IMG/VR virus record: IMGVR_UViG_3300036791_000307
Location: 1 to 31,990 of that record
DNA from: a virus
Length of the DNA: 31,990 nt
Direction: 5' to 3' (one strand)
Shown: positions 14,121 to 29,677 of the stretch, one piece after another
How the letters are laid out: every line of letters begins with the position of its first letter
Numbering within the stretch: position 1 is the first letter of the stretch
Notes under the pieces: generated by a model
Databases searched by the model: none
What the model saw: only the letters and a program-made list of their open reading frames with translations
What the model was told of the DNA's origin: nothing
Made by a program: the position numbers and the translations under genes

Positions 14121-14145
14121 TTACCCCTCCAAAAACAAAGAGCTG

Positions 14146-14185
14146 GGTATCGCAAACGCGAACCTGGGTATCGCAAACGCGAACC
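14146..14185 (-). repeat. Two tandem copies of the bulged-base hairpin element
   Basis: Plus-strand copies GGTATCGCAAACGCGAACC at 14146-14164 and 14167-14185 (21-bp period). Each folds as GGT-(A)-TCGC / GCGA-ACC with a four-base loop. They belong to the same family as 16220-16240 and 22579-22746 and lie in the gap just upstream of the gp4-like gene's ribosome site. Function unknown; RNA regulation or a REP-type mobile repeat are options. Confidence 0.8.
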
Positions 14186-14190
14186 TGGGA

Positions 14191-19510: not shown

Positions 19511-19735
19511 TTATTGAATCACTTTTGGATATATATTGATCCGATAGAGCAACCGTGCATTCCGGTTTTCAGTGAGATGCCTTTCATGTTTCTGTCGCAC
19601 ATTGCGATCGGCGGGACATGATCCATAGTCCGTTGGGCTGGTATAGCTCATTCCATATACTGATGGCTCGAAGTATGCCGTTACGAAAATCGGTTGCTGC
19701 AAAGTCTTGCGATTTCCGTGAAAGATCGTCTTCAT
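19511..19735 (-). CDS. Small hypothetical protein between terminase and portal
   Basis: A 74-residue basic protein starting MKTIFHGNRKTLQQPIF; the ATG overlaps the terminase stop (ATGA at 19732-19735) and the stop abuts the portal ATG. No motif recognised. Its composition (many Tyr, Arg, Asn) is somewhat unlike the neighbours. The neat fit between two large genes supports a real gene, but a non-coding gap cannot be excluded. Confidence 0.5.
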   Translation of the reverse strand: MKTIFHGNRKTLQQPIFVTAYFEPSVYGMSYTSPTDYGSCPADRNVRQKHERHLTENRNARLLYRINIYPKVIQ

Positions 19736-21993
19736 AGCGTCATGGCATCAACGAGCTTGGGTTTCTTTTCCCGATAGCCGTCGTCGGGCAACTGCGGAAT
19801 CGCATTCTTTTTCAACTTCGCTACCACCATGATATCGAGTAACTGACCAACCAGCCCGAGCGCGTCCACTTGATCATCATGCTTGGAAGCCGGGAAATTG
19901 AGAATCTCGGCGAGAAAATCACTGACCCAGTTGGCGTGCTTGGGATAATACAGGCCATCGAGTGCCATGCGGCCCTGCATACTGCGTGCCCGCACCGCCT
20001 TGTCGCCACGGGAGGAGAACGGGCGGCGGTTGACGTAAGCCCTTCGCTGCCGCATCCGCTTTTCAAGAAAAGGACCCACACCGCTCTTGATCTGGCCGGG
20101 TTCTTCCGCCCATTCCAACGGATGATATTTCAGAACCAGATCACAGAACGCATCGACCCAGACATCGCTCGTCGCCTGCCGGCGCCACACGTCGAGCAAA
20201 TACATATTGTTGAGGTGATCGACGCCGACCACGGCATGCACGGTGTAGTCGCCGCCGTCCTTGGTCACTGCATAGTCGGAAGCGCCGTACACTCTCAAGC
20301 TGGAAGGGTGCGGAATGATGTCCCTTGGCTTCAGCCATTCTTCCCTAAAGAAGTCGCCTTCATCCGGTGTCGGCGTTTGTTGATATAGCGCGGACCACAC
20401 GCGAGGTGGAGTCGTCTCACGAAGGCCAAGTAACTGCTGCCCGTAGCCATAATCATCATCTGTCCAGAGCGGTTCATCCAGGTCACGTCCCAGGGGATCG
20501 TTCGCTTTCGCGAGAGCAGGAAGCTCGATTGTCTCCCACGGTTCATGATTGAGCACCCTTCCAGCCAGATCGTCCTCATGCCAGCGTGTGTTATGGCTGC
20601 AATACCCGTTAGAGATGAAATTCTCGGTTCGCGAAATTTGGATATCAAATACATCTTCAACGCCGGCTGGAACGACCTCAACAACTTCATCACTCGTAAT
20701 GTTCAAGGTATGCAATGACATTCCGGAAATAATCGACTGTCTTGTGCTTGGTGCCACGGCCAACGGAGATATTGCATTCGTGACAAAGTAATCCCCTGAC
20801 TGCTCCTGTAGCGTAGCAATGATCGACGAACAGCTTTCCCTGCCATGGTCTGTAGCCTGTTGTTGCCGGTGGGCAGGCACAGATGGCACAAACTCCATTC
20901 TGTCGATCAAATATGACATCGTAATCATTCTGAGTGATGCCGTAACGATGTTTGAGATGCGCCTGACGGCCTGATTTGTAGTTGACCGAAGGCGCGCGAA
21001 TACCCCGCTCCCAACGATCCTTGTTGTAGTGCGACATGCAGAAGCCGCCGCACTTGGCCGGTCGCTTGCATCCTTCTCCCTTACAGATCGTTCCGCGCCA
21101 CTTGCCCCAGTGACCTTGAGGAGCCGGGCGCCCTTTTTCAGCGTATCCGTTCGCTGCCATTCCTGTACTCCGTCAATCTCCACGAGGAAGGGATGCCTCG
21201 CATTCGCTTTGACGGTAGTTCCAGATTTCGTCCTAATTGTGAATATGCTATCAGGACCTTGATTGGTCCAATTCAAAATAGTCTCTGCGACGATTTCTCT
21301 TGTATTGCGATCGTAAGAAGCAACTCGATCGCCGCGCCTGATATTGCGCAGCTCTTTCTCAGTTCCATCTGCCATCAGGACGCGCGTATCTCCCGTCAGG
21401 CACTGAATCAACACCTGCCGCGCGCCAGGGACCAGACGAGGCCTAAAGTCATTGAGATACCAATCCCATAGACGATCGCGAACCAGAAGCGAATCGGCGT
21501 CCTGCCTGGACCGAATGGGGTCATCGATCAAGCCATACAAGGCCCTGAAGCCGGCGATGCCGACATTGGCGCCGGCTGCGTAGTATTCACCACCGCTTTG
21601 CAGTGACCAGCGATTGGCAGCCTGGTTGTCATCGCTCAACTTGATTTCCAACAGAAGATCGTTGTCGGCAATGATATTCCTGACCCTGCGGCCCCAGCGT
21701 TCCGCCAGTTCCGTGGTGTGCGAAGCGGCGAGGATCAGCGCTTTGGGGTCTTGCGCCAATAACCACGGCGGAAACAATACCGAGGTATAAGTCGATTTCG
21801 CCGAGCCGGGCGGCATGAACAGAGCGAGGCGAAGGATATCGCCGCGCGCTACGGCTTCTAGCTTGTCAATGATCAAGCGATGATGCCGAGCCGGCTTGTA
21901 CCCGTTGAACTCGCACCAGAACGACAGCGACGACAGGATTTGCTCGCGCAACAGCAATTCTTGCGCGCAACCCTGCCGCCAATCGATGGTCAT
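19732..21993 (-). CDS. Terminase large subunit interrupted by an in-frame intein
   Basis: The precursor has 753 residues: N-extein 1-197, intein 198-468, C-extein 469-753. After splicing, TerL would have 482 residues, normal for P22-type terminases. ATPase: Walker A in MPPGSAKST (60-68), Walker B in LIDDP (155-159). Nuclease: YGASDYAVTKDGGDY with the first Asp at 573, and HDDQVDAL at 705-712. It cuts and pumps the phage DNA through the portal. The intein splits VLIQ from TRWHEDDLAGR, the conserved C-motif of the ATPase, so unspliced protein should be inactive. The start overlaps the upstream small gene (ATGA). Confidence 0.93.
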   Translation of the reverse strand: MTIDWRQGCAQELLLREQILSSLSFWCEFNGYKPARHHRLIIDKLEAVARGDILRLALFMPPGSAKSTYTSVLFPPWLLAQDPKALILAASHTTELAERWGRRVRNIIADNDLLLEIKLSDDNQAANRWSLQSGGEYYAAGANVGIAGFRALYGLIDDPIRSRQDADSLLVRDRLWDWYLNDFRPRLVPGARQVLIQCLTGDTRVLMADGTEKELRNIRRGDRVASYDRNTREIVAETILNWTNQGPDSIFTIRTKSGTTVKANARHPFLVEIDGVQEWQRTDTLKKGARLLKVTGASGAERSVREKDASDRPSAAASACRTTTRIVGSGVFARLRSTTNQAVRRISNIVTASLRMITMSYLIDRMEFVPSVPAHRQQQATDHGRESCSSIIATLQEQSGDYFVTNAISPLAVAPSTRQSIISGMSLHTLNITSDEVVEVVPAGVEDVFDIQISRTENFISNGYCSHNTRWHEDDLAGRVLNHEPWETIELPALAKANDPLGRDLDEPLWTDDDYGYGQQLLGLRETTPPRVWSALYQQTPTPDEGDFFREEWLKPRDIIPHPSSLRVYGASDYAVTKDGGDYTVHAVVGVDHLNNMYLLDVWRRQATSDVWVDAFCDLVLKYHPLEWAEEPGQIKSGVGPFLEKRMRQRRAYVNRRPFSSRGDKAVRARSMQGRMALDGLYYPKHANWVSDFLAEILNFPASKHDDQVDALGLVGQLLDIMVVAKLKKNAIPQLPDDGYREKKPKLVDAMTL
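20690..21160 (-). CDS. Endonuclease-VII-like nuclease nested out of frame inside the intein
   Basis: A 156-residue protein in the -1 frame relative to the intein. It has a CKGEGCKRPAKCGGFC zinc-type segment, then HLKHRYGITQNDYDVIFDRQ, GVCAICACPP, LFVDHCYATGAVRGLLCHEC and a final FRNVIAYLEHYE, the complete pattern of recombination endonuclease VII / HNH proteins. The ATG at 21160 has GGAG seven bases upstream; an in-frame TGA at 21173-21175 closes the frame above, and a TGA ends it at 20690. So it is built for separate translation, unlike ordinary intein endonucleases that are in frame. It probably serves as the homing nuclease of the intein, cutting intein-free terminase genes (inference). 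Confidence 0.88.
   Translation of the reverse strand: MAANGYAEKGRPAPQGHWGKWRGTICKGEGCKRPAKCGGFCMSHYNKDRWERGIRAPSVNYKSGRQAHLKHRYGITQNDYDVIFDRQNGVCAICACPPATTGYRPWQGKLFVDHCYATGAVRGLLCHECNISVGRGTKHKTVDYFRNVIAYLEHYE
21161..21175 (-). promoter_or_regulatory. Internal ribosome binding site and upstream stop for the nested nuclease
   Basis: Minus-strand order: TGA (21175-21173, in the nuclease frame), then CGGAG with GGAG at 21171-21168, a seven-base spacer, then ATG at 21160. In the intein frame the same bases code for DGVQEW. This site decides the nuclease start and argues against a fused or frameshifted product. Confidence 0.75.
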
Positions 21994-22489: not shown

Positions 22490-22801
22490 TTACTGACCGA
22501 TCCCACTTCTGGCAAGTCCTTGCACCGCACCTTGGACTTGCAGCGCCTTTTTAGCGTGCGGGGGCGTGAACCAAAAATGGTATCGCAACGGCGAACCATG
22601 GTATCGCAACGGCGAACCATGGTATCGCAACGGCGAACCAGAGTTGCCCGCGTCAAAGAGGGCGGCCCAAGGTATTTGCAAGGGCAAAACCTGATGACGC
22701 GGGCTATCCCCGTGGTTGGTGCGGTACGGCATCGCAATTGCGAGCCGGAGGACCACGGGAATGTCGGGTACCGACCACCCTGGGGGCAGGTTGTCCGGCA
22801 C
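22490..22801 (-). CDS. Doubtful small CDS running through the hairpin repeats
   Basis: Opens with GTG at 22801 (AGGG seven bases upstream) and a natural-looking N-terminus MPDNLPPGWSVPDIP, a start seen in small phage proteins. Further on, the frame crosses the hairpin repeats and reads GSPLRYH three times, which looks like translated repeat DNA. Either a short gene invaded by the repeats or a chance frame. Apart from this and the hairpins, nothing is seen in the gap 22441-22896. Confidence 0.3.
   Translation of the reverse strand: MPDNLPPGWSVPDIPVVLRLAIAMPYRTNHGDSPRHQVLPLQIPWAALFDAGNSGSPLRYHGSPLRYHGSPLRYHFWFTPPHAKKALQVQGAVQGLARSGIGQ
22579..22746 (-). repeat. Cluster of five bulged-base hairpins
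   Basis: Three 21-bp tandem copies of GGTATCGCAACGGCGAACC (22579-22597, 22600-22618, 22621-22639), one TTTGC/GCAAA variant (22671-22691) and one GGC-(A)-TCGC-AATT-GCGA-GCC variant (22728-22746). The stem changes are compensatory (GGT/ACC to GGC/GCC; TCGC/GCGA to TTTGC/GCAAA) and the extra base is always kept. All copies have the same orientation as those at 14146 and 16220. Confidence 0.85.
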
Positions 22802-29390: not shown

Positions 29391-29677
29391 CTGTAATGTA
29401 AACAAAGCGCCACCGGATCAATGCCGAAGCTCGCCCAAAATTCGGATTCTGACATTTGATGTTGCATGTCGTGATGGCGCTTGCACAAAGGCAGAACCCA
29501 TTTACTGTCGGACGATTTTTCGCCCATACCCGTCGGCAGCTTATCGTCGTTTATTGATCCGACGCGCAAATGAGCGGCTTCAACCGAAACATTATCGCCA
29601 CACAGGCAGCACGGTTGGCTGCGGATAAATTGCAAATGACGCTCGTTGTATTCGCGCGGTTTACGCTGTCGCAACAT
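29375..29677 (-). CDS. HNH-like protein of the DUF968/recombination-module type
   Basis: A 100-residue protein from the ATG at 29677 (GGGAG eight bases upstream). RSQPCCLCGDNVSVEAAHLRVG, then KWVLPLCKRHHDMQH gives two zinc-type Cys pairs and the AH...H...H pattern of HNH proteins found in recombination (NinG-like) modules. Probably a structure-specific nuclease acting on recombination intermediates. It overlaps the end of the homing endonuclease gene, and its C-terminus (SARPR) is encoded by array B. Confidence 0.8.
   Translation of the reverse strand: MLRQRKPREYNERHLQFIRSQPCCLCGDNVSVEAAHLRVGSINDDKLPTGMGEKSSDSKWVLPLCKRHHDMQHQMSESEFWASFGIDPVALCLHYSARPR

Follow-up and report, generated by a model that had tools for sequence, protein, structure and literature searches.

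A mobile terminase intein with an Endonuclease VII-like gene nested in a second reading frame

How does a single stretch of phage DNA encode both an intein and, in a different reading frame, a complete nuclease? The question is raised by the gene of the large terminase subunit, terL (19732..21993, minus strand), in a viral record of 31,990 nucleotides (IMGVR_UViG_3300036791_000307), the whole of which was analyzed and is called the window below. The gene is surrounded by those for the portal, capsid and head-closure proteins and for the terminase small subunit. Its product, a precursor of 753 aa, matches the Pfam families Terminase_6N/6C and Intein_splicing (1.7e-13 for the latter) and the NCBIfam models psiM2_ORF9, intein_Nterm and intein_Cterm. 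Residues 198–468 of the precursor form an intein of 271 aa (20590..21402, minus strand), which begins with C1 (CLTGDTRV) and ends with H270-N271 (NGYCSHN), followed by Thr at position +1. The insertion point is the VLIQ/TRWHED junction of TerL, which corresponds to the ATPase coupling C-motif site, TerL6-f, of Kelley et al. 2016 (PMC5050341). The same site is empty and intact in about 40 intein-free close relatives of this TerL. AlphaFold2 modeling, with input alignments that left out the rows from named phage records, predicted two ordered Hint subdomains (pLDDT >90 each), an N-terminal one (intein aa 1–100, 21103..21402, minus strand) and a C-terminal one with blocks F and G (aa 229–271, 20590..20718, minus strand). 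They are separated by a linker (aa 101–228, 20719..21102, minus strand; pLDDT ~48) without secondary structure and predicted to be disordered, which is the stop-free read-through of the nuclease gene. Among 82 inteins, C1, N67xxH70 and W82 are invariant in the N-terminal subdomain and V251, D253, T259, N261, F262 and N271 in the C-terminal one, while Foldseek matched the window intein to DnaB mini-inteins (E 6e-9). With the Hint fold, C1, NxxH70, N271 and Thr at +1, the insertion is a class-1-like intein.

The other reading, in frame +2 (equivalent to −1) of the intein, is a protein of 156 aa (20690..21160, minus strand) that ends with TGA at 20692-20690 and belongs to the Endonuclease_7 family (Pfam, 3.9e-18), with an HNH-like Endo VII motif. 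The intein frame is open throughout this ORF, which confirms the out-of-frame position given in the preliminary description of the locus. Profile comparison with the PDB solidly identified T4 endonuclease VII (6e-8) and also related Hpy99I, while the structural matches of Foldseek to both were weak (E 0.03-0.05). The catalytic core C91xxC94...D113H114xY116...R122...C126xxC129N130 (20771..20890, minus strand) contains columns invariant in 82 homologues, among them the four zinc Cys, D113, H114, R122 and N130, and it is preceded by an N-terminal zinc finger (C26, C31, C41, H44; 21029..21085, minus strand), (nearly) invariant in the same homologues, with weak matches to DUF5763 and Zf_WRKY19. Most members of the family exhibit DHxH; the window nuclease reads DHCY, with Tyr116 in place of the second catalytic His. 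As the H43T mutant of T4 endonuclease VII is inactive (PMC6083498), cutting by the window nuclease may be weak or absent. The AlphaFold2 model of the nuclease is folded from about residue 20, with aa 1–9 disordered (pLDDT <50). The first 18 codons (21107..21160, minus strand) are dual-coded according to the models and to conservation, specifying the end of the N-terminal Hint subdomain (WQRTDTLKKGARLLKV..) and the disordered N-terminus of the nuclease.

Is this layout peculiar to the window? We assembled 99 distinct inteins at this TerL site (the window and 98 others) by scans with whole TerL, nuclease and intein alignments, the sources being IMG/VR, prophages, and Gordonia and Mycobacterium phages. 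In 99/99 the nuclease lies in frame +2 and the intein frame is free of stops, and in-frame nucleases were found in 0/99 of these homologues from viral contigs, genomes and phage records. As most of the inteins were found through similarity to the window intein or nuclease, the census is biased; a less biased scan driven by whole TerL gave the same outcome. Each of the 44 insertions at the TRWHED site (the loci from the first scans, five named phages and the window) is a multiple of 3 in length and free of stops in the intein frame, and its nuclease lies in frame +2. The 98 inteins other than that of the window all reside in TerL, and in each of them the first residue is Cys, the last Asn and the +1 residue Thr. 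The family includes Gordonia phages Vivi2 and Angelicage, Mycobacterium phages Phlyer and Vincenzo, and phi1_186018, as well as loci in bacterial assemblies of Nonomuraea, Mycolicibacterium and Bradyrhizobium. The layout is present but unannotated in the named phages Phlyer, Chandler, Vivi2, Angelicage and Vincenzo. In the five named phage records inspected first the nested nuclease has no gene annotation of its own, and in the other phage matches the listed features are the terminase or the intein only.

These findings change several points of the preliminary description. Its statement that known inteins carry nucleases in frame or not at all is too strong, since the named phages Phlyer, Chandler, Vivi2, Angelicage and Vincenzo share the layout, and uniqueness of the layout to this locus is not supported, as all 99 inteins found at the site have it. 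It had also named a result that would speak against it, namely homologues with an in-frame nuclease and damage in the window copy only, and the homologues show nothing of the kind. The suggested recent capture of the nuclease gene has to be rejected, as the layout is common to inteins whose TerL exteins share only 24-36% identity. The nuclease ORF is intact in 97/99 members; nonsense mutations interrupt it in 2/99 (the group of L082-L084, and L170), and L035 has an internal deletion. All of these keep an intact splicing frame, so the nuclease can decay without loss of splicing. In Vincenzo (L089, 2399-2980) the nested nuclease contains an apparent duplication of the N-terminal zinc-finger segment, by which the intein is extended to 900 nt, a length again divisible by 3, with no stop in its frame.

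How might the nested gene be translated? In the window its ATG (21158..21160, minus strand) overlaps the TGG that encodes Trp82, an invariant residue of Hint, and is preceded by a TGA that closes the nuclease frame (21173..21175, minus strand); the upstream and terminal TGA codons are as first described. The same arrangement, a start codon overlapping the TGG of the invariant Trp behind an upstream in-frame stop, was found in 97/97 intact members, with ATG in 77 and GTG in 20, at intein nt 234-243. The base that makes this start codon is A or G in 87/87 clusters (80% identity), compared with 75.5±2.5 (maximum 83) after shuffling of synonymous Hint codons. The GGAG credited to the nuclease as its own ribosome-binding site is present 7 nt before the ATG (21168..21171, minus strand) as a possible Shine-Dalgarno sequence, but the family-wide Shine-Dalgarno signal does not clearly exceed that of synonymous shuffles (3.91 vs 3.70±0.12, ~1.8 sd, not significant). 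A ribosome-binding site of its own is thus plausible for the window nuclease, while internal initiation as the mechanism is left unproven by a signal only ~1.8 sd above the shuffles. Or perhaps the nuclease is made by programmed −1 frameshifting, as a fusion to the TerL N-extein and the N-terminal Hint subdomain? The weak family signal would agree with this, as would the −1-prone run CTG AAA AAG (LKKG), which some members including the window have close to where the overlap begins. However, the AAA AAG run is absent from many members, which have LRPG, LKPG or other sequences at this place, the fusion product would carry an unspliceable N-extein, and the start codon in the Trp codon is conserved beyond synonymous expectation. 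We therefore regard frameshifting as improbable and internal initiation as the better reading.

The pattern of relationships among exteins, Hint domains and nucleases argues for a mobile element. The intein DNA of the window is 95.6% identical to that of its relative L002, while the extein DNA is only 76-82% identical. The converse is seen between L002 and L003, with exteins 97% identical at the aa level and Hint domains only 44%, and between Angelicage and Vivi2, with exteins 99%, Hint domains 60% and nucleases 46% identical. In Mantel tests of 35 inteins, Hint similarity correlated with nuclease similarity (0.74, p 0.0005), while extein similarity correlated neither with Hint (0.05, p 0.32) nor with nuclease similarity (0.11, p 0.19). 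On the strength of these correlations and pairwise contrasts, the Hint domain and the nuclease travel as one unit, independently of the exteins, and such units have repeatedly replaced one another at a single site, as predicted by homing. The homing role itself is deduced from this mobility, because the Endonuclease_7 family also includes resolvases. T4 endonuclease VII resolves DNA junctions before packaging, and in Leptolyngbya phage LPP-2 a free-standing Endo VII relative adjoins terL; both facts would suit a nuclease that serves DNA packaging or junction resolution and for which the intein is a mere shelter. Against such a role, close intein-free relatives have no nuclease at the site, Hint and nuclease move jointly between divergent TerLs, and the independent replacements are what homing would produce; we consider it unlikely, and homing the better account of the mobility. 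The LPP-2 gene (L278, 2513-2893) has 4 nt in common with the end of terL, and the arrangement is possibly a picture of the state before capture.

Selection on the two frames is partitioned along the overlap: over approximately the first 18 nuclease codons only the Hint reading is conserved, and over all later codons only the nuclease reading. The preliminary description took EWQRTDTLKKGARLLKV, overlapped by about the first 17 nuclease codons, for a likely real Hint segment. The AlphaFold2 model, in which Hint is ordered to about residue 100, supports this, and conservation agrees, with a mean pairwise identity over the first 12 nuclease codons of 0.45 when read as Hint and 0.20 for the same codons read as nuclease, so that dual use of about 18 codons is well supported. 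From codon 19 on the nuclease-frame identity is 0.55 and the intein-frame identity 0.29, and the aa identity of the linker in the intein frame (0.292) is close to that after nuclease-synonymous shuffling (0.269). Substitutions peak at position 3 of the intein codons in the flanks and at position 3 of the nuclease codons in the overlap. The intein frame contains 0 stops, compared with 109.4±7.7 in nuclease-synonymous shuffles, while the third frame has the expected number (827 observed vs 850). Between the window and L002 there are 17 differences in the core, which cause 4 changes in the nuclease, where 11.8 were expected (none of 5000 simulations gave as few as 4), and 16 in the intein linker. 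Purifying selection on the window nuclease is thus evident in spite of Tyr116. This residue, together with the nonsense mutations and the deletion found beside intact inteins, could suggest that the ORF is a dead remnant, kept open by DNA composition or by the recency of its arrival, but the invariance of Cys4, D, H, R and N in 82 homologues, the intact ORF in nearly all members and the constraint between sequences as close as the window and L002 make this very unlikely. Finally, the idea that an assembly or frameshift error split a fused in-frame intein-nuclease can be dismissed, as the frame is identical in 99 distinct sequences, some of them from finished isolate genomes, and the insert length is always a multiple of 3. 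Nothing was found in favor of such an error, and damage to the window copy is likewise rejected as an explanation.

Taken together, the locus is very probably a mobile TerL intein with its homing endonuclease encoded not as a domain but by a gene of its own, which is nested in the intein and overlaps it. Initiation at the start of terL would yield a precursor containing the intein; the two Hint halves are predicted to fold around the disordered linker of ~128 residues, encoded by the nuclease DNA in the other frame, and would splice the precursor to TerL. Splicing in E. coli has been shown for the Chandler gp6 intein by Kelley et al. 2016 (PMC5050341), and by inspection this intein has the same layout as that of the window. 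Internal initiation at the ATG or GTG within the Hint Trp codon would give a free nuclease of ~150 aa with the Endo VII motif and the N-terminal zinc finger. We infer that this separately translated nuclease cuts intein-free terL across the TRWHED site, and repair of the cut gene would then copy intein and nuclease together. On this model the ~18 shared codons would serve Hint and the remainder the nuclease, and the intein frame of the latter would need only to avoid stops.

A second family of TerL inteins is probably an independent instance of the out-of-frame layout with a different nuclease. It is represented by an intein at the Walker B site (L017, 1727-2710; GRGAH^C...HN^CLLIDDP), in which frame +1 encodes an HNH nuclease (PF01844, 2e-4). 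All 9 distinct Walker B inteins (L017, L260-L263, L270, L272, L274 and L276, the last from Gordonia phage Clown) have the nuclease in frame +1, and their intein frames contain 0 stops, compared with 65.6±5.8 after shuffling. In several of them the nuclease starts at about nt 233-251 of the intein, near the homologous Hint position, though less regularly, and in one (L261) the nuclease frame is interrupted early by a stop. An intein of Synechococcus phage S-EIVl (L277) fits the Walker B pattern. A nuclease tree groups the nested nucleases (3 label changes vs 14 when shuffled), and to judge by this tree, which is blurred by long branches, they may have a single origin. Ordinary in-frame LAGLIDADG endonucleases were observed in inteins at the P-loop site in the same TerL group (L013, 3001-4563; L023, 1924-3300), and L013 and L017 each have two inteins in one TerL.

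Among known systems, the TerL6-f inteins of mycobacteriophages (Chandler gp6) share the TerL type, the C-motif site and the intein family with the window; the passages of Kelley et al. 2016 on the Chandler intein (PMC5050341) make no mention of an out-of-frame nuclease, and TerL1-b and -c inteins are the only ones for which cleavage by the homing endonuclease was examined there. Like the element described here, canonical bifunctional inteins (LAGLIDADG or in-frame HNH) combine Hint and a homing endonuclease in one mobile unit, but they encode the endonuclease domain in the Hint frame, unlike the frame +2 arrangement described here. The fractured genes of Dassa et al. (2009) are reportedly split inteins with a free-standing homing endonuclease gene between the halves; they too encode the endonuclease apart from the splicing domains, but as two ORFs, whereas terL and intein of the window form one ORF of 753 aa overlapped by the endonuclease gene. 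The closest parallel in layout is provided by the insertions of the ShiLan domain and Pacc40 gp60 (Arsenault et al. 2025, PMC11855218), which also have an out-of-frame HNH-type nuclease in a stop-free host frame and a disjunct distribution, but have no domain for intein splicing and are believed to remain part of the protein; the window insertion resembles them in its other-frame nuclease within an open insertion and differs in its complete Hint fold, which could remove it. With respect to the nuclease, F-CphI, which defines the DHHRN family of homing endonucleases with the Endo VII motif CxxC-DHxH-R-CxxCN (Fang et al. 2018, PMC6083498), has a similar catalytic motif and matches the window nuclease with 38% over ~97 aa; it is free-standing beside the intron-containing psbA (PMC6083498) and does not have the Tyr found in the window at the second His. 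The literature search found no paper on an intein with an out-of-frame nuclease, its reach not extending to a 2025 bioRxiv preprint on actinobacteriophage inteins (10.1101/2025.01.02.630785). PMC11855218 notes that overlapping frames are frequent in actinobacteriophages and cites that preprint for inteins of these phages with 'non-canonical architecture'; we give about even chances that it already reports this layout.

As a rule, a mobile intein has its endonuclease as one of its domains, and splicing sets both free together, which ties homing to splicing. Here, judging from the anatomy, splicing and nuclease are separate genes that share DNA, and nuclease dose and splicing could vary independently. 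One stop codon can remove the nuclease without harm to TerL, as in L082 and L170. The layout may also indicate a route by which mini-inteins gain endonucleases, as insertion in any frame suffices if the linker is free of stops, and in surveys that rely on in-frame domains such inteins will be mistaken for large mini-inteins. Together with the ShiLan insertion, the two TerL cases point to homing nucleases encoded out of frame as a strategy that phages use repeatedly. We lean, with considerable reservation, towards regarding frame-nested inteins as a distinct class, in which the endonuclease is a same-strand overlapping gene with its start embedded in the Trp/Tyr strand of Hint and the intein-frame reading is a disposable linker. 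This class would have arisen at least twice in TerL (at the coupling motif with an Endo VII nuclease in frame +2, and at Walker B with an HNH nuclease, PF01844, in frame +1) and would be widespread in phages and unannotated. Elsewhere in the window we observed a second, ordinary HNH endonuclease gene (29661-30386, minus strand; phrog_59, 1.6e-30) and perfect 21-bp tandem repeats at 22577-22640 (3.0 copies) and 14143-14189 (2.2 copies), the units of which are related.
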